From assembly GCA_016931365.1 (NCBI GenBank), contig JAFGEY010000330.1, forward strand, positions 1-9,363: a DNA stretch of 9,363 nt, in the 5' to 3' direction. The position numbers and the translations under genes are program-made. The notes under the pieces were generated by a model, which saw nothing but the letters and a program-made list of their open reading frames with translations, was not told the DNA's origin and did not search any database. This document shows positions 1 through 9,363 of this stretch, one piece after another; the first letter of the stretch is position 1, and every line of letters starts with the position of its first letter. This stretch comes from Anaerolineae bacterium. GTDB lineage: Bacteria > Chloroflexota > Anaerolineae > JAFGEY01.

Positions 1-1614
1 CAGCTTGAACTGGACCACCAGCGCTTGCAGGTTCTGGGCCATCTCGTTCAGCGCCTGAGCGGAGGCGGTCACCTCTTCGGACTGGGCGCTCACCTCTTCC
101 ACCGTCGCGCTGACCTCTTCCGTCGAGGCGCTGTTTTCTTCCGAGATGCTGGTGATGTTTTCGATCATCATCGCAAAGTCACTCGCACCGGCAGACATCT
201 CCTCGGTCGCGGCAGTGTTCTCCTCGACGATGGCCGAGACGGTGTCCATCGCACCCACCATCTCGTTGGCCGACGCATTCACCTGCTGGGCCGCCGCAGC
301 GATCTCGCCCACCTGTCGATTCGTGGATTCGACCGCTTCGAGGATCGCCTGCAGCGCTTCGCCCGATTGAGTCGAACGCTTGACCCCCGCCTCCACCTCG
401 GTCGCGCCGTCGTTCATCGCCTGCGCGGCTTCGGCAACCGTCTTTTGCACCTGCTTGATCAGCGTGGCGATCTCTTTGGTCGCCCCCGCCGCATTCTCGG
501 ACAGCTTGCGCACCTCGTCGGCCACAACGGCAAAGCCCTTGCCGTGCTCGCCGGCGCGCGCCGCCTCGATCGCCGCGTTGAGCGCGAACAGGTTGGTCTG
601 TGAGGCGATATAGTTGATCGTCTGCACAATGTCGCCGATCTCTTCCGAGCGCTGTCCCAGGTCTTGCACTTTCTGAACAGCCAGGTTGACCTTGGCGCGA
701 ATGGTTTCCATCCCGACCACGGTCTCGCGCACGATCTCGACGCCGGCGCGCGCCGTGCGGGCGGCGTGAATCGAGCTGTCTGTGCCGGCCTGGGCGTTGC
801 TGGCCACCTGCTGGATGGCGGACGAGATTTGGGCGGTGATTTCGGCAGAGCGCGCCACGGCCGTCGCCTGTTCCTGCGCGCCGTGCGCCACCCCATCGAT
901 CGCCCGCGTCACCTGGTCGACCGTGCCCATCGTCTTGGTCATGCTTTCGGTCTGCGCCGCGGTGCCCTGAGCCACCTGCTGGATCGTCGTCGCCACCTGC
1001 TGCGTGCCTCCGGCCGACTGTTCGGCGGCCGCCGAGATCTGCTGGCTAGCAGTGGCTACCTGATGCGCGCTGGACTGCACCTGTCCGATCAGGGTGCGTA
1101 GGCTGACGATCATTTGGGCAAAGGCATTGCCCAGCCGGTCTTGATCCGACTTGGGCGCGACGCCAATGGTCAAGTCGCCTTGCGCCAGACTGTCTGCCGC
1201 AGAAGCCATGGCTCGCTGATATATAATTGTTTCGCGCAAGGCAGTGGCCAGTTGGCCGATTTCATCTTTGCTCGCATAGTCGGTCGTTTCCCTCAGATCG
1301 CCTTGAGCGATCCTCAACGCAATGCCAATCAAGGTCTGAATAGGAACGACAATGATGCGATACATCACATAAAGTACACCTAGCGTGGTAGCCATGCCAC
1401 CGCCGGCGATGATGATGACATTCAGGGTTGAAAGCCCGAGTTGTCCCAAAAGGAATGCTAACTCGACATCTATTGACACTGCGATCATGATCGCGATTGC
1501 CAGTTTGAGAATAATGCCTTGGCCGGTCAGTGCTCTAACAACGAACATAAACGGGACTGATCCGAACAAAATTACCGCAAGTATGAGCAAGCTATTCTCA
1601 AGTACTGTATTCAT
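1..1614 (-). CDS. Methyl-accepting chemotaxis protein, C-terminus cut by window edge
   Basis: Membrane chemoreceptor that would relay signals to the CheA/CheW kinase complex. The frame is open from ATG at 1614 to the window edge (538 codons). Residues about 8-28, 34-57 and 63-88 are hydrophobic, with no sizeable extracellular loop, so there is no classical periplasmic sensor domain. A HAMP domain follows (about 88-142, Pro91 and DEIG at 117-120), then a second HAMP-like stretch (about 143-180) with the repeated AQGDL motif. The rest is a long coiled-coil signalling domain with the hairpin tip around residues 335-370 ([20 protein letters not shown]). The last visible residues, VVQFKL, are typical of an MCP end, so probably only a few residues are missing. 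A purine-rich RBS, AAAGGAGAG (1625-1633), supports the start. The input could be intracellular, membrane-derived or via a partner; the ligand is unknown. Confidence 0.95.
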
Positions 1615-1764
1615 GTTTTTATCGCTCTCCTTTGCACATCCAATGCACGGTCAGTCGTTATCATGCGCCGGGCGGACTATTGCCCGCCGCGCGCCACTAA
1701 ACATAAAAAAGCTTCGTCCCGGTCGGAAACCATTGTCAGGTCGGACTTCAAAGTGCTTTATAAC
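1615..1764 (-). other. Untranslated leader of the chemotaxis gene
   Basis: No convincing gene lies here. If the promoter at 1765-1793 is used, this is a 5' leader of about 140-150 nt. It holds one small GC-rich hairpin (stem 1671-1675 with 1684-1688, 8-nt loop) and the ribosome binding site at 1625-1633. I see no recognisable riboswitch. The leader may only be a spacer; the hairpin is short and could be chance in GC-rich DNA. Confidence 0.4.
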
Positions 1765-1793
1765 ATCATAACATATCCGAAGGCAAAGCGCAA
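1765..1793 (-). promoter_or_regulatory. Putative sigma-70-type promoter for the chemotaxis gene
   Basis: Read on the minus strand, TTGCGC (1788-1793) and TATGAT (1765-1770) are separated by exactly 17 bp. TATGAT differs from TATAAT at one position and is preceded by TGT, an extended -10 element. The site is about 150 bp upstream of the chemoreceptor ATG and 27 bp outside the IS256-like element, so the insertion did not disrupt it. Assignment rests on consensus matching only. Confidence 0.45.
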
Positions 1794-1820
1794 TGTGGTT
1801 TCTGGGAGCAATGCTATTGG

Positions 1821-1844
1821 GAGATATCGTCAAATGTTGTGGAT
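1821..1844 (+). repeat. Left terminal inverted repeat of the IS256-like element
   Basis: Starts GAGATATCGTCAAATG and matches the reverse complement of 2218-2241 at 22 of 24 bases. The differences are a C/T and a G/A change. Similarity stops at 1845. Confidence 0.75.
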
Positions 1845-1870
1845 ATTGGACTTGGGACAAACGTCAAAAG

Positions 1871-1946
1871 GTAGGCGCGGTTTCCATACCGCGCGCCACC
1901 CATCATCTTGGATATTCACAAAGCGCGCTATAGAAAGCGCGCCTAC
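1871..1946. repeat. BIME-like pair of inverted GTAG-REP units
   Basis: Two 24-bp units face each other: 1871-1894 on plus and 1923-1946 on minus, separated by 28 bp. Each reads GTAG, a 6-bp stem, an 8-nt loop and the return stem. They differ at three positions. Two of these are the paired stem positions 10 and 19 (G-C in one unit, C-G in the other), so pairing is preserved; the third is in the loop (TTTCCATA versus TTTCTATA). A GTAG tetranucleotide at the 5' foot of a hairpin, with units arranged head-on, is the classic architecture of enterobacterial REP/BIME elements. This family is distinct from the 34-bp palindromes elsewhere in the window. It sits inside the 5' part of the IS256-like remnant and so arrived after that element, or was captured by it. 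Confidence 0.75.
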
Positions 1947-1971
1947 ACCCGCTGACCCTAAAGGATACGCC

Positions 1972-2174
1972 ATGCTCAAGAGTGTCACCAGTCAAGAATC
2001 TGAACAAATGGCCGAACTGGCCAAACTGACGCTGGATGAGATGGCCCGCGAAGGCGCTCGCCGGATGATTCAAGCCGCACTTGAGTGCAAGTGACAGAAT
2101 ACATCGAATCACTGAATCACCTGCTGCCGCTGGTACAGGCCGGTGTTGTGTTCAAGGATGGAGTCAAGCAGTAG
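1972..2174 (+). pseudogene. IS256-like transposase remnant, frameshifted and internally deleted
   Basis: From ATG 1972, 40 codons give a segment ending LDEMAREGARRMIQAALE, which resembles the conserved N-terminus of IS256-family transposases (usually about 400 residues). The frame then ends at TGA 2092-2094. Moving to the frame starting at GTG 2091 continues the expected alignment with VTEYIESLN, so about one base has been lost near 2084-2090. That frame then passes straight into HLLPLVQAGVVFKDGVKQ and stops at 2172-2174. This last piece resembles the family's C-terminus (typically a HLVALVRAG-like run followed by F-x-x-G). The catalytic DDE core is wholly absent, so no active transposase is made. 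Family identification is by eye. Confidence 0.65.
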
Positions 2175-2217
2175 CCGGAACCGTTGTGCGATCCTCTGGA
2201 TACGTCTGCCCAGGTCG

Positions 2218-2241
2218 ATCCATAACATTTGACAATATCTC
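2218..2241 (-). repeat. Right terminal inverted repeat of the IS256-like element
   Basis: Inverted partner of 1821-1844 (22 of 24 identical). It ends 32 bp past the stop codon of the membrane-protein gene at 2274. Confidence 0.75.
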
Positions 2242-2273
2242 TTCATTATGCGAGGAGTTGTGAGAGAACTCGT

Positions 2274-2918
2274 TTACCGATTATCCAGCTCCCATCTTTC
2301 AATGGCTCGCCTGATCAGATCAGCCTGACTGGCGTTAGGGTGGCGCTTGCGTTCAAACTCGATCAACCGTTGTGCTGCGGCGTGGTCGCCGTGCACTTTG
2401 ACCAGCAGATTGCGGTACAGCTCTGGATATGCCACACCAGGGTGCGTCCGTGTTTGCGCGCGCCGCTCGCGCGCCGCCGGGTCGAGCTGCCAACTCGAAA
2501 AAAACGACTTGGGCTTGGATGCGTCCAATGCCTGTTTGATCCTCGGTTCGGCGCGCAACGTCAGCCAGTAAAACAAGCCGATCCCCAACAACGTCTGTAC
2601 AGCATCATACCAATCGACCAGACGCCCGAATAACAGCGGGGGCAAAAACATCGATGCCGTCGCTGCCAGGGCAAACCCTGCCGATCGCCAGGTGCGAGAA
2701 GCAAGCAGCCGCAACGGAGATCGAAAGGGAGCACAAACGAGCAGGAACAGGCCGAACAAAAAGAAGGCGATCATCGCCTGAACGAACAGTGATTGACCGA
2801 TATCGAGCGCAAAAGCGCCCCAGCCCCCAATATCGAAGGCCAGGATGACGCATAAACCGAGCCCGATTGCCCCGCCTACAACAAGAAAGCTCTGATATAC
2901 CCTGGATCGATCGCGCAT
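2274..2918 (-). CDS. Four-helix membrane protein with charged helical C-terminal tail
   Basis: 214 residues, function not recognised. Four hydrophobic helices are visible at about 10-29, 42-63, 79-98 and 105-121. A basic, hydrophilic stretch (about 122-160) follows, then a compact helical tail (about 164-214) with the pattern Y-x-x-L-L-x-x-V-x-G-D, R-L-I-E-F-E-R and A-I-E-R-W. I recall similar tails on assorted small proteins of Chloroflexota and cyanobacteria but cannot name a family. The start is supported by AGGAGG at 2925-2930, six bases before ATG 2918. It begins 52 bp after the nuclease-helicase stop on the same strand, so co-transcription is likely. It may be a membrane partner of the helicase, or unrelated. 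No signal peptide beyond the first helix. Confidence 0.85.
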   Translation of the reverse strand: MRDRSRVYQSFLVVGGAIGLGLCVILAFDIGGWGAFALDIGQSLFVQAMIAFFLFGLFLLVCAPFRSPLRLLASRTWRSAGFALAATASMFLPPLLFGRLVDWYDAVQTLLGIGLFYWLTLRAEPRIKQALDASKPKSFFSSWQLDPAARERRAQTRTHPGVAYPELYRNLLVKVHGDHAAAQRLIEFERKRHPNASQADLIRRAIERWELDNR

Positions 2919-2970
2919 ATCCCCCCTCCTCGTGCACGCTCAATGCCATGACGGCGGGCATAGCCTTACC

Positions 2971-5900
2971 TTACTCCACGAGCGCCTCACTACAAATGAT
3001 GCGCGTCAAGGCGTCATTTTCGCCGTCGCTTTCTTCGCGACGGGTTCTCGTTTCATCGAGTCCATAGACATGGTAGACATTGCCGAGCATATCCAGCAGC
3101 GCTTCGCCGGTCAGTCCTTCGCGACGGATGCGGTTCAGCTCGTTGCGCACGGTTGGCCGTGGGCCGGGCTGCAAAAAAGCCGCCTCAAGGACTTCAATCT
3201 GCCGGCGCAGGTCTTCGTCGGGCGTAGCCTGGTACAAAACGCGCAGTTCACGCCGCACGTACTGCTGCGCCTTGGTCAACGATACCGTGTGTCTTTGCTC
3301 GGCGCGTCGAGATTGTACCTCGTGATCAAAGTGCCGCTTGATCTGCATGACTTGTTGATTGTAACCTGCCGGCAGCGGCCGGGCCGGCGTATCCGGCTCA
3401 CATTTCAACACCCCGAGGATCACAGCGGGATCGCGGCTCTTGATCTCTCCGCTTTCGTCCACCAGATACAATTGGCGATAGTGCCCGGCCCGACAGAAAA
3501 CCACTGTGCCGGGTTGACCGGTCTGCTGCGCACAGCGAATGCCATCGCGCAGAGCGGCGATGTACCGGTATCGTTGGGGTTGATCCTCTTTGAGCTGGCG
3601 GATGATCTCTTCGGCCTCGTTCAGATCCAGGTATTCATCGTCGCCATCCTCTTCGTAGCGACCGATCTCTCCATGCGTATAGATGGTGTACATCGCTTCT
3701 TCGTTGATCTGTTCGCCCGGATCGAGGATGGCGGCATCTTCGCCGATGGTCTCATGGATTTCCTGGATGCGCCGGGCGAGTTTTTCCCGCAGACCCAGGT
3801 TCTTTTCCAGTTCGGTTTCGGGCATAAAGTTGTAGCCGTAAATCATTTCATGTTCCGAGCCGATGCGATCGATGCGGCCAAAGCGCTGGATCAGGCGTAC
3901 CGGATTCCAGTGCAGATCATAGTTGATCACACTGTCGCAGTCCTGGAGGTTCAAGCCTTCAGAGAGCACGTCGGTTGCCACGAGTGTATCGATCTCGACC
4001 ACTTGGAACGGCGAATCCGGCAAGTGCTGCTGTGGATTGGCGCGGGGGGCGAAACGCCCCACGATTTCAGCCTTGCTCTTTTCCCGGCTATAGATGACCT
4101 CGACATCGGGCCGGCTGTGATCTGGATCGAGGTTTTCGTAGAGGTACTGCGCGGTATCCGCGTATTGGGTAAAAATCAGCCGCTTGCTCCCGTGCAGTGG
4201 CGGGCGTTCCAGCAGGGCTAACAGCGTTTGCAGCTTGGCGTCCCGTGCGGGTGTGATCGGTTCGACAAGCGCCTGTATTTCGTTCAAGACGCCCATATCC
4301 TGTTCAATGTCGGCGCGAAGCGCGTCAAGGTCGAAATCGTTGACTTGGTAGCGGCCGCTGACCTGCTCCAGGGCATCCAGCAGCGCCTGTTCTTCGTTCA
4401 GATCGGACTCGTAGAGCAGCTTTTGAGCCTCTTCACCGGCAGCGACGATGCCCTGATCGAGTGCGGCCAGGAACTGCTGGTGGATGCGCGACAGTCGCCG
4501 GATCGTTTGCTGAAACGCATAGACGCTGGACTCGAAACGTTTGAACAGCATCACCCGCATCAGACCGCGCAGGTTGGCCCCCGCGCGCTGTAGGTCGGCG
4601 TAGGGCGGCTGGTTGTGTTTGGCGGCGTGGACGTAATTCCACAGGCCGTAACGGGCATAGGTCAGATGGTGGGTAGACCTGTCAGGTCTCTCAAGACTTG
4701 TCAGGTCTGGGAGCCGCCCCAGGAAGCCGCGAAGCCGTTCATACAGTCCTTGATACGTTTCCTCGATGCTGTATGCGACCGTTTCCAGTTGCCGCTTGGG
4801 AAAGAACTGCTTGCGTCCCGCCACCTTGACGTAGGCGCGCCGCTGGCCTTCTCGATAGGGTGCGAATTGATCGGGGTCTACACGCTGATCGCTCCGCTCG
4901 TCATAGCCGTACCAACGCAGGATGTGCATGCGCGTGCGGCGAATCAGCAGATTGGCCAGCAAGGCCGGCAGTCGACGCTCGCCATCCTCGACCAGCTTGA
5001 AATACTGGCGCAAATGGGGCGGATCGATGGGCAGCGTGGTGATCTCGTCCTGGTGAAAGAGTTTGAGCTGGTTGTAGATATCCCACACCGATTTGTTGCG
5101 CGGCGTGGCGGTCAGGAAAACACACCGCCGGTCGCCAAAGTTCAGATAGCTCTCCAGCACTTTGTAGCGCTGGCTCTCGGTGTTGCGAAAGTTATGGCTC
5201 TCGTCGACGAGAACAAAATCGCGGTAGCGATAGCGTTCGTCGTGGATCATCCATTCCGGGCCGTTGCGTTCATCTTCGCGCAGCATGCCCAACGACAGGA
5301 CGCGGGCGTTGAGCTGGTACGCTTCGTTGTAATGCTCCCACATGTCTACCAATGGAGCCGGGCAGACGATCAGCGAGCGGGCCCGGTCGTGGCGCTCAAA
5401 GTGCTTGATGATCGCCGCGCCGATGTAGGATTTGCCCAGGCCGACCACGTCGGACACAAAGCAGCCGCCGTAGCGGCGGATCATCGTCACCGCCTGGCGC
5501 ACGGCGCGCTCCTGAAACTCGGTCAGCACGGCGGTGATGTCGTCGCGCCACAAGAATTCGTCGGCCTCTGCGCCTTCGATGTGCTCGCGGACCAGCTCGT
5601 ACAGTGTCTTGAGATAGATGTCATATGGCGTGACCTGGGCCAGCGGCCACGAGCGGCGCAGTTCGCTCATCAGGTGAGGCTCGAAATCCTGAGCTTCGGC
5701 CCATAGTGCGTCAAACCAGCGGCTCAGTTCGCCGTGGTTGGCGTCGCCGAGCACCTTGACGTTCAATTCGCTGTTGCTGGTGATGCCGGAAAGGGTCAGG
5801 TTGCTGGAACCGACGATCGCCATCCCCTGGCCGTACGGGCTGTTGGGGGGATAGTCAAAAATATAGGCTTTGGCGTGCAGGCGTCCCTGGGTGTAAACGC

Positions 5901-6306
5901 GCACCTTGAGCCGGCCTTCTTCGATCAGTCTGACCAGCGCGCACACAAGCTGCTCCGCTTCCTGCGTTTGATCCATCAGCGCCGCCGTCTGGCCGATCTG
6001 GGTTGCGGCGGCGTCGGCGATGAGCGTCATCTGCGCCCGCTTGGGATAGGCGACCTCTTCGATGGCGTTTTGCACCTGTTCCAGCCGGCGGTAGCCTTCG
6101 GCGATCTGTTCGATCGTCTCGCGGCTGGAGGTGTTGCCGATCAGCAGACACAGTTCGGCAACGTTCTCCAATGCGTCGGCGATGGCCTCCAGGCCGGAGA
6201 GAAAGAAATAGCCGACGGCAAACTTGGCCGCCTGGCTGCCGGGCAGGACGCGGCGGATGTGATCGACGAGCTTTTCGGCGCGGTTGTCGATGATGTCGTG
6301 GGGCAT
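2971..6306 (-). CDS. Phospholipase-D-like nuclease fused to SNF2-type helicase
   Basis: 1111 residues, apparently full length. The N-terminus carries one HKD (PLD) half-site: H144, K146, D151 and GSSN at 166-169, typical of PLD-family nucleases that work as dimers. An SNF2/superfamily-2 ATPase core follows: Q-like motif near 264, Walker A variant DVVGLGKS (286-293), motif Ia at 311-317, DESH (368-371), LTATPRNK (398-405), FTQYADT (712-718), TDVLSEGLNLQD (778-789) and QRFGRIDRIG (807-816). The remaining ~290 residues are a C-terminal domain without a motif I can name. The likely role is ATP-driven movement on nucleic acid coupled to cleavage, in the cytoplasm; such proteins occur in defence and repair loci. 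AAGGAG (6312-6317) precedes ATG 6306. A REP palindrome is read through in frame at residues 533-544, between the motif III and motif IV regions. Confidence 0.93.
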   Translation of the reverse strand: MPHDIIDNRAEKLVDHIRRVLPGSQAAKFAVGYFFLSGLEAIADALENVAELCLLIGNTSSRETIEQIAEGYRRLEQVQNAIEEVAYPKRAQMTLIADAAATQIGQTAALMDQTQEAEQLVCALVRLIEEGRLKVRVYTQGRLHAKAYIFDYPPNSPYGQGMAIVGSSNLTLSGITSNSELNVKVLGDANHGELSRWFDALWAEAQDFEPHLMSELRRSWPLAQVTPYDIYLKTLYELVREHIEGAEADEFLWRDDITAVLTEFQERAVRQAVTMIRRYGGCFVSDVVGLGKSYIGAAIIKHFERHDRARSLIVCPAPLVDMWEHYNEAYQLNARVLSLGMLREDERNGPEWMIHDERYRYRDFVLVDESHNFRNTESQRYKVLESYLNFGDRRCVFLTATPRNKSVWDIYNQLKLFHQDEITTLPIDPPHLRQYFKLVEDGERRLPALLANLLIRRTRMHILRWYGYDERSDQRVDPDQFAPYREGQRRAYVKVAGRKQFFPKRQLETVAYSIEETYQGLYERLRGFLGRLPDLTSLERPDRSTHHLTYARYGLWNYVHAAKHNQPPYADLQRAGANLRGLMRVMLFKRFESSVYAFQQTIRRLSRIHQQFLAALDQGIVAAGEEAQKLLYESDLNEEQALLDALEQVSGRYQVNDFDLDALRADIEQDMGVLNEIQALVEPITPARDAKLQTLLALLERPPLHGSKRLIFTQYADTAQYLYENLDPDHSRPDVEVIYSREKSKAEIVGRFAPRANPQQHLPDSPFQVVEIDTLVATDVLSEGLNLQDCDSVINYDLHWNPVRLIQRFGRIDRIGSEHEMIYGYNFMPETELEKNLGLREKLARRIQEIHETIGEDAAILDPGEQINEEAMYTIYTHGEIGRYEEDGDDEYLDLNEAEEIIRQLKEDQPQRYRYIAALRDGIRCAQQTGQPGTVVFCRAGHYRQLYLVDESGEIKSRDPAVILGVLKCEPDTPARPLPAGYNQQVMQIKRHFDHEVQSRRAEQRHTVSLTKAQQYVRRELRVLYQATPDEDLRRQIEVLEAAFLQPGPRPTVRNELNRIRREGLTGEALLDMLGNVYHVYGLDETRTRREESDGENDALTRIICSEALVE
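4675..4708. repeat. 34-bp REP palindrome inside the helicase gene (copy R1)
   Basis: The most diverged of five copies. Two 15-bp halves flank a 4-nt centre; the left half AGACCTGTCAGGTCT is itself palindromic, and the long stem has two mismatches. It is translated on the minus strand as PDLTSLERPDRS (helicase residues 533-544), without breaking the frame. GTAG is present at its left foot (4673-4676). Confidence 0.85.
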
Positions 6307-6320
6307 AGGGACTCCTTCAA

Positions 6321-6354
6321 AGACCTGACAGGTTTAGGAAAACCTGTCAGGTCT
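6321..6354. repeat. 34-bp REP palindrome between transposase and helicase (copy R2)
   Basis: Perfect 15-bp arms (AGACCTGACAGGTTT and its complement) around AGGA. The arm centre is A where the other copies have T. An extra AGGTCT at 6357-6362, offset by 8 bp, extends it into the transposase stop codon (6362-6364). The helicase RBS begins four bases beyond the other end. It would form a strong hairpin in the mRNA just ahead of the helicase start. Confidence 0.95.
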
Positions 6355-6361
6355 TCAGGTC

Positions 6362-6967
6362 TCAATCAAAATCATCCAATACCAGCGATTCGATCCGAGA
6401 TTCAGCGACATCCTGACGGTGCGCGAGATCAAAGCCCTCCAGGCCCTCAAACCAGCCCAGGACATCGTCGCGATCGAGGCGCGTCGGCTTGGTTGAACGC
6501 AGGGCATGGTAGGAAGAGTAGGGCCAGTCGCGAAAATCGTCAACAAAGCCGTGCTTTTCGGGGTTCCGGTGGATGTAGGTGACCAGGCGACAGAAATAGC
6601 GATCTGATGTGACCGGAATGCGGCCAAACGGGCGCTGGAACAAGGCGCCCGTGCGGCCGTAGGCCTTGTTGAAGGCCCTGGTGTAGGCATTGAACAAGTT
6701 GGAGAAGGACTGGCTTGGCGCTCGAGACCTGTCAGGTTTCGGAAAACCTGACAGGTCTTCGGGGGCATCCTTGATACGCAACAAAAAGTGAAAATGATTT
6801 CCGAGCAGGCAGTATGCATAGACCACGGCTATAGGGCAAATGTGCTGAGCAAAGCGCTGCAAAAAGTAGCGATAGTTGCGCTCTTGACGAAAAATATCCT
6901 CGCGGTTGTTGCCCCGGTTATAGATGTGATAATATTGACCGTATTGCAAAGGTATGTTTTCGGGCAC
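6362..6967 (-). CDS. rayT: REP-associated tyrosine transposase (Y1/HUH family)
   Basis: 201 residues, normal to slightly long for a RAYT single-strand transposase, which nicks DNA at REP sequences and forms a 5'-phosphotyrosine link. The HUH-type metal site is H58-F59-H60 within GNHFHFLL. The likely catalytic tyrosine is Y131 in YIHRNP, followed by the family pattern DWPYSSY (147-153). The ORF begins with GTG at 6967; AGGAGG at 6974-6979 lies six bases upstream, fixing this start. It is flanked by REP palindromes 14 bp upstream and 7 bp downstream, the expected arrangement for a RAYT and its substrates. A third palindrome lies inside the gene (residues 70-81), in the linker between the HUH motif and the following helices, without breaking the frame. 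Motifs look intact, so activity is plausible. Confidence 0.9.
   Translation of the reverse strand: MPENIPLQYGQYYHIYNRGNNREDIFRQERNYRYFLQRFAQHICPIAVVYAYCLLGNHFHFLLRIKDAPEDLSGFPKPDRSRAPSQSFSNLFNAYTRAFNKAYGRTGALFQRPFGRIPVTSDRYFCRLVTYIHRNPEKHGFVDDFRDWPYSSYHALRSTKPTRLDRDDVLGWFEGLEGFDLAHRQDVAESRIESLVLDDFD
6725..6758. repeat. 34-bp REP palindrome inside the transposase gene (copy R3)
   Basis: Perfect 15-bp arms (AGACCTGTCAGGTTT and complement) around CGGA. It is read on the minus strand as part of the transposase, giving EDLSGFPKPDRS at about residues 70-81. Unlike the intergenic copies it lacks the extra 8-bp tandem GGTCT unit on its right. Confidence 0.95.
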
Positions 6968-6973
6968 GTCGAT

Positions 6974-6979
6974 CCTCCT
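6974..6979 (-). promoter_or_regulatory. Ribosome binding site fixing the GTG start of the transposase
   Basis: AGGAGG on the minus strand, six bases from GTG at 6967. No in-frame ATG lies near a comparable site, so GTG is the likely start. Confidence 0.8.
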
Positions 6980-6980
6980 G

Positions 6981-7014
6981 AGACCTGTCAGGTTTAAGAA
7001 AACCTGACAGGTCT
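6981..7014. repeat. 34-bp REP palindrome upstream of the transposase (copy R4)
   Basis: Perfect 15-bp arms around AAGA, identical over all 34 bp to copy R5. A tandem 8-bp unit, GGTCTGCG at 7010-7017 and 7018-7025, extends it to within two bases of the TAA stop (7028-7030) of the upstream membrane-protein gene. The other end abuts the transposase RBS. Confidence 0.95.
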
Positions 7015-7027
7015 GCGGGTCTGCGGG

Positions 7028-7738
7028 TTACGGCTTGACTTCCAGCTCGATCACATCCGGCAGCAGGTCCGGCTTGAGATCGATGTTTTGCTCCCAGCGT
7101 TGGTAGCCCGTTTCTTCCACGATCAACCGCCCCGGCTGCCCGGCATGCGAGGCAGGGATCAGAATGCGCGTGTAACCGTTCGAGTCGGTATAGTCGTCAA
7201 TGGGCGCTTTGCCGCCGACCTCGATGATCACTTTGGCACCTTGGATCGCCTCGTCTTTGTCTTTGATACGCACGCGCACGCCATAATAAAAACTGCCGTC
7301 GGGGTTTACTTCTACAGTTGGCTGAGCGGTCGGGTTGGCCAACCATTTCTCGATCAGCGGGACGCCCAGCGTGCCGATCAGCGCGATCAGCGCGACGATA
7401 ATGGCGCTGATCAACGCAACCTGCTGCACGGCGGGCAGTGACTTGAACCAGGATACCTTGGATGGCGTTGCAGGTATCCCTGTCTGACGAGTTGCCGACC
7501 GAAACAAATCGCCAAAGTGGGCCGCAATTTCGACGATATCGGCAGGAGTATGGACATCAGGAATATCATAATACTGGCTCAAGTAGCCTTTGATGTTTTC
7601 CCATTGCCGTTCAATGGCGCGCTGGCTTGCGAGTTTTTCTTCCGACCGGCTGGTCGTTTGAATCGTCTGCTCGTGCTCGCGAATGATTGCATACGAATCG
7701 CGAATCATTTGTTCCAGGTGTGTTTTGCTTGCCATCAT
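7028..7738 (-). CDS. Single-pass membrane protein: helical effector-associated-like N-terminus, outer beta domain
   Basis: 236 residues. Residues 1-60 are a charged helical domain (IRDSYAIIREHEQTI, then ERQWENIKGYL). This resembles effector-associated (EAD-type) adaptor domains of Chloroflexota conflict proteins, an identification from memory only. A basic linker precedes one transmembrane helix at about 104-125. The outer part (about 150-236) looks like a carboxypeptidase-regulatory or Big-like beta sandwich: GAKVIIEVGG, then TDSNGYT and a run of beta strands. The helical domain would be cytoplasmic and the beta domain extracellular. The same beta-domain pattern appears in the gene upstream (9363-7802). 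The start could be ATG 7738 or the adjacent ATG 7735. A signalling or adaptor role is inferred; no catalytic motif is visible. Confidence 0.85.
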   Translation of the reverse strand: MMASKTHLEQMIRDSYAIIREHEQTIQTTSRSEEKLASQRAIERQWENIKGYLSQYYDIPDVHTPADIVEIAAHFGDLFRSATRQTGIPATPSKVSWFKSLPAVQQVALISAIIVALIALIGTLGVPLIEKWLANPTAQPTVEVNPDGSFYYGVRVRIKDKDEAIQGAKVIIEVGGKAPIDDYTDSNGYTRILIPASHAGQPGRLIVEETGYQRWEQNIDLKPDLLPDVIELEVKP

Positions 7739-7739
7739 T

Positions 7740-7744
7740 CCTCC
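7740..7744 (-). promoter_or_regulatory. Ribosome binding site favouring the second Met of the membrane protein
   Basis: GGAGG lies one base before ATG 7738 but four bases before ATG 7735. The second methionine is therefore the better-spaced start, and the protein may be one residue shorter than the longest reading. Confidence 0.5.
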
Positions 7745-7757
7745 CCTATCTTTGAAT

Positions 7758-7791
7758 AGACCTGTCAGGTTTAAGAAAACCTGACAGGTCT
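7758..7791. repeat. 34-bp REP palindrome after the propeller gene (copy R5)
   Basis: Perfect 15-bp arms around AAGA, identical to R4. A tandem 8-bp unit (GGTCTACC at 7787-7794 and 7795-7802) reaches the first base of the propeller gene's stop codon (7802-7804). On the minus strand this places GTAG at the 5' foot, in two tandem copies. Confidence 0.95.
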
Positions 7792-7801
7792 ACCGGTCTA
7801 C

Positions 7802-9363
7802 CTACCAGTCCGGGTCTTCGTTGTTGCCCTGATTTTCGGTGAGCTGCGTCCAAACCGCCCTCGATCCGCTGTTGAGCACGTCGGCAAAGGAGACAATGTA
7901 AATGTCATACTTGCCGCCCTTGTTGGACACAAAGGCGATGGTCTGGCCGTCCGGCGACCAGCAGGGCGACCGATCTTCCGTTGCAGCATCGGTGAGCTGA
8001 GTGCGGCTGTTGCCCAGGCTGTGATACAGCTCCAGGTTGCCGGTGTGGTTGGAGACAAAGACGAACCGATCCGCGACCGGCGAGCGGGCTGGCTCTTGCT
8101 GGTTGTCTCCCGAGGCAGCGTGATGCATCTCGTCGCCGCCGCCGAGGTTGACCGAGTAGATTTGCCAATAGCCGCCGCCGCGATTGGACTGAAAGGCCAC
8201 CCGCTGCCCGTCGGCAAACCAGGAGGGATGTTCGTCGTGCGCGCCCGCATACCGGACAATGGCCCGCAGGTCGCTGCCGTCCGGTTTCACCAGGTAGAGG
8301 TCATAGTCGCCGTTGCGATTGCTCTGAAAGGCGATCCACTCGCCGCTGGGCGACCAGGCCGGCCACATGTCGTTGGCCGTGTGCTGGACGATGCGCGTCT
8401 GCCCGCTGCCGTCGGCGTTCATTACGTAAATGTCGAAATTGCCGGTGCCGATCTCGCGCGCAAAGACGATCTGGCTGCCGCCGGGCGACCAGCTCGGATG
8501 GCGGTCGTTGGCCGAGGTGGAGGTGAGCCGCTGCACGCCGCCGCCGTCGGCGTTCATGCTAAAAATATCGTAATTGCCGTAGCGGTTGGAGGTAAAGACA
8601 ATCCGTCCCGTCGCCGCCACGACTGTGCCTGTTGGTGTGGGCGTGGGCGAGCCGGATGGCGTCGGGCAGGCGGGCCAGCCGGGCGTGGGCAGGGCCTCGA
8701 AATCGCCGTCCCAGTCGAAGCGCTTGCCGTCGGCAAAGCCTTCGACGCCTGCCGCGTTGCGGACGTACAGCCAGTTGCCGTACTCGGAGCGCCCCAGCAC
8801 GTCGACGACGTCGTTGGGCTCGACCTTGCCAAGTTCGTACCCGGTTTTGGCCTCCGGCCGGCAGTAGATGCTGGCCCACTGGGTAGCGACGGCGGTCAGC
8901 GCATCGGGATCGCGCGTGGGGGTGGGCGTTGGAGTGGCGGTGGGCGTTGCCGTTGGGATGGGCGTTGGCGTTAAAGTAGACGTTGGCGTCTCTGTCGCGG
9001 TGCTGGTTGGCGAATCCGGCTTGGGCGTGTGGGTGGGGACTGTTTCTTCGGCTATGGTTGGTGTCGGAGTGAAGACGGGTGTTTCTGTACTTGTTGGGGT
9101 TGGCGTACAAGTAGGTTCAACATATGAGCCGATCGGTTCGATCTCGATCCGTTCAGGTAATGCATCTTTGCGCAAGTTTTTCGATTCTGTACGACTATGG
9201 AAATTATCCTTGCTTACCGTGATTTTAGCCAAAGCCTCGGCTTTAAATATAGGGATTTCAAATATTGCTATACCATTTGCATCAGTCCATTCGGTCAATG
9301 GAGCTAATCCACCAACTGCAATCGTCACTTTAGCATCGCTAACACATTGTTCGCCACCTTGTA
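7802..9363 (-). CDS. Surface protein with SH3-like domain and TolB-type propeller, N-terminus cut
   Basis: At least 520 residues. The frame is open through the window edge (SDAKVTIAVGG continues upstream of an internal GTG at 9328), so the true start lies outside. Domain order: regulatory-like beta domain (about 9363-9130) with TDANG; a Thr/Pro-rich linker (9118-8903); an SH3-like domain (about 8900-8720; VEPNDVVDVLGRSEYGNWLYV); a second short Pro/Thr linker; then six PD40/TolB-like repeats (8608-7805), with motifs such as IVFTSNR, YDIFSMNADG and HPSWSPGG. Such propellers bind proteins or glycans outside the cell; no enzyme motif is seen. The protein is probably exported or membrane-anchored through the unseen N-terminus. 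The beta domain resembles that of the next gene downstream, suggesting a shared architecture. Its stop lies 63 bp before that gene. Confidence 0.9.
   Translation of the reverse strand, partial: QGGEQCVSDAKVTIAVGGLAPLTEWTDANGIAIFEIPIFKAEALAKITVSKDNFHSRTESKNLRKDALPERIEIEPIGSYVEPTCTPTPTSTETPVFTPTPTIAEETVPTHTPKPDSPTSTATETPTSTLTPTPIPTATPTATPTPTPTRDPDALTAVATQWASIYCRPEAKTGYELGKVEPNDVVDVLGRSEYGNWLYVRNAAGVEGFADGKRFDWDGDFEALPTPGWPACPTPSGSPTPTPTGTVVAATGRIVFTSNRYGNYDIFSMNADGGGVQRLTSTSANDRHPSWSPGGSQIVFAREIGTGNFDIYVMNADGSGQTRIVQHTANDMWPAWSPSGEWIAFQSNRNGDYDLYLVKPDGSDLRAIVRYAGAHDEHPSWFADGQRVAFQSNRGGGYWQIYSVNLGGGDEMHHAASGDNQQEPARSPVADRFVFVSNHTGNLELYHSLGNSRTQLTDAATEDRSPCWSPDGQTIAFVSNKGGKYDIYIVSFADVLNSGSRAVWTQLTENQGNNEDPDW
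8903..9118 (-). repeat. Low-complexity Thr/Pro-coding tract
   Basis: Degenerate short repeats (GGCGTTGG/GGTGGGCGTT types on plus) encoding about 72 Thr/Pro/Ser-rich residues, an extended linker between two outer domains. It is densest at 8918-8990. Such tracts are common in Chloroflexota surface proteins and can vary in length by slippage. Confidence 0.85.

Follow-up and report, generated by a model that had tools for sequence, protein, structure and literature searches.

A REP-family palindrome inside a RAYT transposase gene of an Anaerolineae bacterium and its possible preservation as a DNA hairpin

Repetitive extragenic palindromes (REPs) are called extragenic, and the usual explanation for copies within genes is that they are harmless accidents. 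Such intragenic copies, some of them in frame in the genes of REP-associated tyrosine transposases (RAYTs, or TnpAREP proteins), are already published. The locus described here is a 9,363-nucleotide stretch from an Anaerolineae bacterium (GenBank assembly GCA_016931365.1, contig JAFGEY010000330.1, positions 1 to 9,363), referred to as the window. It carries five copies, R1 to R5, of a 34-bp palindrome family. R3 lies in the open reading frame (ORF) of a RAYT, and R1 in that of an unrelated helicase. What is new is an internal repeat in another group of RAYTs, with signs of hairpin preservation. Judged from sequence comparison, R3 is probably the cognate hairpin of the RAYT itself, kept as DNA within the ORF, and R1 and the copies in other genes would be tolerated insertions or replacements.

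Known internal REPs and the placement of the window RAYT

The main-text sections of Quentin et al. 2018 (PMC6006769) report in-frame REPs in tnpAREP genes, generally between the HuH and Y motifs. There, internal REPs are called unique to subclass 2.4 (with some in 2.8), the REPs are of the GT[AG]G type, and little effect on activity is suggested. The subclass 2.4 genes resemble the present ones in having REPs both inserted in the gene and flanking it; the sections report no covariation or synonymous-site test. Passages of Di Nocera et al. 2013 (PMC3733652) describe intragenic REPs in unrelated genes. These GTAG/CGTC REPs are likewise short palindromes translated in unrelated genes, including helicases and repair genes, with flexible loops suggested as their sites, but the families are set by GTAG or CGTC ends and the passages contain no RAYT-internal copies. 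Rickettsia palindromic elements (RPE), mentioned in the same passages, are also found in frame in many proteins. Compared by description, the difference lies in CGTC-ended elements and longer RPE-1 insertions, whereas the present palindromes are RAYT-linked and read in several frames. Nunvar 2010 (PMC2817692) is part of the same known work, and the matched passages of PMC8266576 hold nothing on insertions. Among open-licence papers, judged by title and start of abstract, none dealt with this type of repeat or with covariation of REPs inside RAYT genes.

The window protein has the HUH and Y motifs of a RAYT/TnpAREP (class 2 TnpAY1). It was compared with the best 80 of at least 534 relatives from one scan of species genomes, making 81 RAYT loci with the window; 67 could be parsed and 14 were dropped, their linker pattern being unmatched. 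All 67 parsed genes carry NHFH and 64 carry Y(I/L)HxNP. The best fold match is 4er8, the complex of E. coli TnpAREP with a REP hairpin (Foldseek E 4.6e-9), which was also matched by profile (E 2e-4). The two proteins share the fold and the HUH/Y1 core, but identity in the fold alignment is 20%, and a shorter stretch from the HUH to the W motif is a further difference. NCBIfam NF047646 scored 59.6 bits, below its cut-off of 80, and 3758 proteins in the database matched at E 0.001 or better. The nearest homologues of both the RAYT and the helicase are, where named, mostly from Anaerolineae or Chloroflexota. The RAYT gene is bracketed by R4 and R2, and the window palindrome type occurs in nine of ten relatives' genomes (3-68 copies), the reversed pattern giving 0.

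The structural model of the RAYT, built on a 35-sequence alignment, has a mean predicted local distance difference test score (pLDDT) of 89.2. It is confident except at the ends and at residues 73-80 (pLDDT <50), which fall within the R3-coded stretch between beta3 (58-65) and alphaC (84-103). A REP inside the gene and a variable beta3-alphaC region are shared with subclass 2.4. The motifs differ: subclass 2.4 has WQ and YIxNNP, whereas the window has FQ and YIHRNP. Over the 67 parsed genes the W motif is mostly F[EQ] (FE in 24, FQ in 19, WQ in 1, no pattern match in 23). Among Y motifs, YIHQNP and YIHRNP are the most frequent; YIHNNP occurs in 7 of 67, and YIHQNP or YIHNNP in 28 of 67. In place of the GT[AG]G foot of subclass 2.4, the arms here are mostly ACCTNNNAGGT-like with no regular foot; in the window GTAG abuts R1 on the plus strand and R5 on the minus strand only, and is absent beside R2, R3 and R4. 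Subclass 2.6, as given in the same sections of Quentin et al. 2018 (PMC6006769), has NH[LIV]H, YIH[QN]NP, a 21-aa insertion between alphaC and beta4, and atypical repeats. The window RAYT has NHFH, YIHRNP and no apparent alphaC-beta4 insertion, though its repeats are atypical. By its motifs it is a clean fit to neither subclass, and its placement is ambiguous.

In three other loci (L057, L044 and L061) the RAYT ORF seems to run into the downstream palindrome, giving repeat-like C-terminal ends such as DLQGLQDLEGL, TCQVFETWQVW and QTWQVSS.

Palindromes in the loop after the HUH motif

An internal palindrome was called when the linker DNA had a stem score of 11 or more. This was reached by 40 of the 67 parsed linkers, the window included, as against 2 of 67 for the best stretch of the same length elsewhere in the gene. 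At a score of 12 or more the numbers are 38 and 0, and codon shuffling gives p <= 0.005 for 43 of the 67 linkers. In these 40 genes, from Chloroflexota, Bacteroidota and Gammaproteobacteria, the palindrome occupies the same place, the loop after the HUH motif, and its arms vary from RAYT to RAYT (ACCTGACAGGT, ACCTCACAGGT, ACCTTCCAGGT, ACCCTAAGGGT, CGCTGGCAGGG and others). The closest 120 RAYT proteins have a post-HUH loop of varying length with repeat-like peptides in several registers: DLxG..KPxRS in 16, DLxG..DLxG in 36, TLRVSETLKV-like in 9, other or none in 49, and 10 unparsed. The loops of L025 and L027 hold two palindromes in succession, the arms being unlike each other in L025.

The internal arms were compared with the repeats around each gene. 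An arm matching with two mismatches or fewer was found elsewhere in the locus for 35 of the 40 RAYTs with an internal palindrome, and in 33 of these 35 such an arm starts no more than about 105 bp from the matched gene. Unlike arms taken from other loci as a control gave per-locus means of 0 to 2.7. Against the flanks (250 bp on either side) the own arm matched on average 12.13 of 13 positions, compared with 9.94 for permuted arms (sd 0.19; highest of 5000 permutations 10.77; n=39, L038 being omitted for its short arm).

The arms also change together. In 14 gap-free aligned palindromes with a 1-nt loop, 99.0% of cells are paired, and 13 of the 15 pairs changed on both sides and none on one side only. 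The set is 14 of 15 such palindromes, L029 being omitted as identical to L027 and L031. Shuffled and slid controls lay far below these values, save for the number of pair types (17), which 183 of 500 shuffles reached. All 40 stems together hold 630 Watson-Crick pairs, 2 G-T pairs and 7 others. Because G-U pairs are nearly absent, action as DNA is more probable than action as RNA.

The arms are also conserved at the DNA level. For 50 gene pairs whose proteins are at least 68% identical outside the linker, identity is 0.869 in the arms vs 0.744 in the rest, and 43 of the 50 pairs have the higher value in the arms. Where two genes have the same residue, the codons are identical in 259 of 294 cases in the arms vs 3169 of 5958 outside the linker, over seven tree-derived groups whose pairs are not independent. 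The groups were drawn from a tree built without the linker because grouping by arm family is partly circular.

A longer form of 95 nt is internal to one RAYT clade (L030, L041, L042, L050, L051, L055 and L059; support 91 in the SH-like approximate likelihood ratio test, SH-aLRT). Its 15-nt arms are perfectly paired in all seven, and its 65-nt loops have identities of 0.44-0.80, with 15 of 21 pairs below 0.60; shuffled loops average 0.52-0.58 and reach 0.72. The arm variant matches its own flanks in six of the seven, AAGGG in L041, L042 and L050 and AAAGG in L030, L055 and L059; in L051 both internal arms depart from the flanks, in a paired way. Conservation among 120 protein homologues of L041 is 97-99% for the arm peptides, 64% for the loop and 86% for the protein as a whole. 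Both arm peptides were found by pattern in 109 of the 120, with 7 unparsed.

Possible role of the internal hairpin and competing explanations

The window may be read as a REPtron, a RAYT gene bracketed by R4 and R2, with R5 and R1 as dispersed copies and R3 as a third family copy within the RAYT ORF. R3 would form, once translated, a floppy loop that joins beta3 to alphaC. That loop is a recurrent seat of palindromes in the RAYT clade, with arms that usually match the flanking repeats, and the joint change of the arms and their kept synonymous sites suggest that they are preserved as a DNA hairpin. Its putative role, the likeliest being a binding site for the RAYT itself, would lie in autoregulation or as a substrate. 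E. coli TnpAREP cuts REP single strands (PMC6006769, main-text sections), and the window RAYT may cut by the same chemistry. R1 and the copies in other genes would then be RAYT-mediated insertions or replacements that persist only at variable loops with a stop-free frame. A further-reaching proposal, put forward tentatively, is that the hairpin in the RAYT coding sequence is a selected cis-acting DNA element, the cognate REP translated in any frame that happens to be open. Its arms and the REPs outside the gene, flanking or dispersed, would evolve together, and gene, specificity and site might form one co-evolving unit.

A number of observations weigh against a preserved cognate hairpin. First, the match to the flanks is not universal. 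Five loci (L006, L015, L023, L035 and L058) have no copy of their own arm at two mismatches or fewer; the L006 arm does match its flanks fully as a 13-mer, and the flanks of L035 carry the arm of another family. Of 39 loci, 26 have an own arm that no other arm outscores and 14 have one that outscores all unlike arms; the strict count is this low because many families share ACCT..AGGT. Second, the pairing percentages are biased because the palindromes were selected for Watson-Crick complementarity. The gene pairs that involve L035 run the opposite way, with arms not higher, and L058/L069 show no synonymous excess (3/7 vs 0.50). Third, 27 of the 67 linkers score below 11. Four of these (L018, L019, L053 and L081) have a shuffle p <= 0.015, and remnants are seen as a half unit in L018 and decayed forms in L019 and L053. 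A flanking stem of 12 or more stands on at least one side in 26 of the 27 and on both sides in 20, these flank counts being uncontrolled. The internal copy is dispensable, since it falls below threshold in 27 genes of which 26 remain flanked. Fourth, a quick tree, many of whose branches are weak, requires 14 or more changes between presence and absence of the internal palindrome, which fits casual gain and loss. These changes and the absence or decay in 27 of 67 show the internal copy to be dispensable and mobile on the evolutionary time scale.

The last two points speak for an explanation in which both in-gene copies are merely tolerated. R3 would have no role, and the RAYT would be hit often since it is near the mover and offers one permissive loop. 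The occurrence of the same palindrome family in loops of other, unrelated genes, among them those for Cas6, HsdR, a glycosyltransferase and a histidine kinase, agrees with this. Neutral fossils, however, should unpair and drift away from the flanks, whereas here the loop decays but the arms remain paired and their synonymous sites conserved. Toleration as the whole account of R3 is considered unlikely.

A second explanation is homogenisation without function, in which re-insertion, conversion from the flanks or template switching at the hairpin keeps the internal palindrome perfect and current. It would account for the match of internal to flanking arms and for the complementarity of the two arms; arms could stay paired in the absence of selection if imperfect palindromes were repaired by template switching, another point against a selected hairpin. 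The long-form loops bear on it from both sides. Four of the seven loops (L030, L042, L051 and L059) resemble some dispersed copy at least as much as they resemble any other internal loop. Because of these four, replacement by other copies is possible, which counts further against preservation in place, and conversion or template switching is a more live rival. By contrast, the loops of L041 and L050 are 0.80 alike, compared with at most 0.72 to any dispersed copy, as expected from vertical descent, and the two share the same arms, which match the flanks. Conversion confined to two 15-nt arms would also be awkward. Homogenisation as the full explanation is regarded as doubtful.

Copies in unrelated genes and features of the window

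The first-pass annotation of this DNA had noted that R1 and R3 are read in frame on the minus strand of two unrelated genes, in the same frame, and had placed both in likely surface linkers. Both statements held up. The peptides are those of Table 1, the first base of each palindrome falls at codon position 3 in both, and the first residue of the two peptides (P or E) is mostly host sequence. R3 coincides with the low-confidence loop of the RAYT model, and R1 begins in a loop (533-541, pLDDT <50) of a helicase model that is itself mediocre (predicted TM-score, pTM, 0.41). The comparison goes beyond that annotation in that R3 belongs to the repeat family of the transposase itself, at a site repeatedly occupied across RAYTs.

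The stretch holding R1 is a variable linker in 120 helicase homologues, most of which have an unrelated short sequence there. Six of the 120, the window included, fit a pattern that was written for one frame and would miss others. The six lie in three places of the tree and need a minimum of 4 changes. R1 is the least perfect copy, self-complementary at 26 of 34 positions compared with 30 of 34 in each of R2-R5. It would be an ordinary tolerated copy. At the R1 site six helicases (P0177, P0181, P0183, P0187, P0213 and P0222) have SPLLGEGQGEGE-like peptides, which, judged from the peptides only, look like another dispersed repeat in translation. The window helicase has a likeness, far below cut-offs, to DISARM DrmD and to an anti-phage protein of the phospholipase D (PLD) type.

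Stretches taken from related genomes contained 132 occurrences of the family in 130 distinct contexts. The sample covers all 42 copies in one genome (G005) and, in the other genomes, the first-listed places plus some further stretches. Fifty palindromes with 65 candidate ORFs were reduced to 30 ORFs scanned with Pfam and 20 with matches, and 15 copies were judged intragenic by their Pfam domains. L110, L125, L135, L162 and L190 were excluded, the palindrome lying at the ORF end outside the domains found. The least certain of the 15 are L106 (a possible run-on of two genes), L139 and L173. The hosts include Cas6, HsdR, a glycosyltransferase, CarB, an FAD oxidase, a fucosidase and a histidine kinase. 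The glycosyltransferase copy sits between two domains. The CarB copy overlies native residues with zero net gain relative to E. coli CarB, and the fucosidase copy lies within a 39-residue extra stretch relative to 1hl8, its nearest solved relative. That each insertion must have gained or lost bases to stay in frame, as had been supposed, is not a general rule. In the Cas6 gene (L161:1115-2050) the palindrome lies between the N and C domains. Two genomes (L122 and L153) carry it in HsdR genes of type I restriction, at an identical site with differing spacer lengths.

The shared frame of R1 and R3 is weak evidence because stop codons nearly force it. In six-frame translation the DL..(K/R)P.RS frame is the sole one that is stop-free on both strands of all five copies. 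On the minus strand it is the only open frame of R1 and one of two in R3. Other readings of same-family copies occur elsewhere (DLTG..NLSG, ETCQV..NLTG and RPDRF..KPVRS), and TLRVS..KPLGS is the reading in RAYT genes that have other arms. The DL phase is used in 11 of the 15 intragenic copies vs 7.0 expected from open frames (one-sided p = 0.033, with one homologous pair counted twice), a preference that is at most weak. Several frames are in use among these copies. A mobile, RAYT-associated palindrome tolerated in frame in variable loops was rightly recognised, as was its resemblance to the Rickettsia elements, in behaviour only; the innocuous peptide of one frame as the cause is not supported. 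The intragenic copies reflect variable loops, not a special peptide.

Selection for the encoded peptide, innocuous or useful, was rejected as an explanation, homologous RAYT loops using several frames. The near invariance of the arm peptides within one clade and the weak phase preference would favour it, but different clades read the palindrome as unrelated peptides and the synonymous sites are conserved. It is largely refuted and now very improbable. Chance or assembly error, in favour of which nothing was found, is a negligible prospect: five copies stand in the window, none arose in 200 dinucleotide-preserving shuffles, and similar genes occur in many separate records.

Table 1. Palindromes and their associated genes in the window (positions in the 9,363-nucleotide stretch)
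Feature	Position	Strand	Details
Helicase gene, 1111 aa, host of R1	2971-6306	-	PLD-like, SNF2-related and Helicase_C domains (Pfam PF13091, PF00176, PF00271)
R1, imperfect palindrome in helicase ORF	4675-4708	-	codons 533-544, reads PDLTSLERPDRS
R2, palindrome between RAYT stop and helicase start	6321-6354	.	gap 55 bp
RAYT gene, 201 aa, apparently intact	6362-6967	-	HUH motif NHFH, Y motif YIHRNP
R3, palindrome within RAYT ORF	6725-6758	-	codons 70-81, reads EDLSGFPKPDRS, beta3-alphaC loop
R4, palindrome immediately upstream of RAYT start	6981-7014	.	gap 60 bp
R5, palindrome separating ORFs 7028-7738 and 7802-9361	7758-7791	.	gap 63 bp; same sequence as R4

Rfam gave no match for the window. 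Three IMG/VR contigs contain the palindrome, and the RAYT-motif pattern is absent from all three. A further inverted repeat is present at window positions 1871-1946 (24-nt arms, 88% complementary, 28 nt apart), directly upstream of a small ORF. In Anaerolineae loci (L030, L041, L048, L050, L061, L070 and others) a long form of about 95-100 nt occurs beside the 33-35 nt form. It has the same kind of arm and a diverged middle and is sometimes closely serial, in a REPIN-like manner.

Preservation of the copy inside the RAYT gene as a hairpin, if real, would tie the enzyme to its repeat and provide a natural record of joint change in specificity and repeat. Many RAYTs with differing arms have the site at the same place in the gene, and direct tests of hairpin recognition would thereby become possible.

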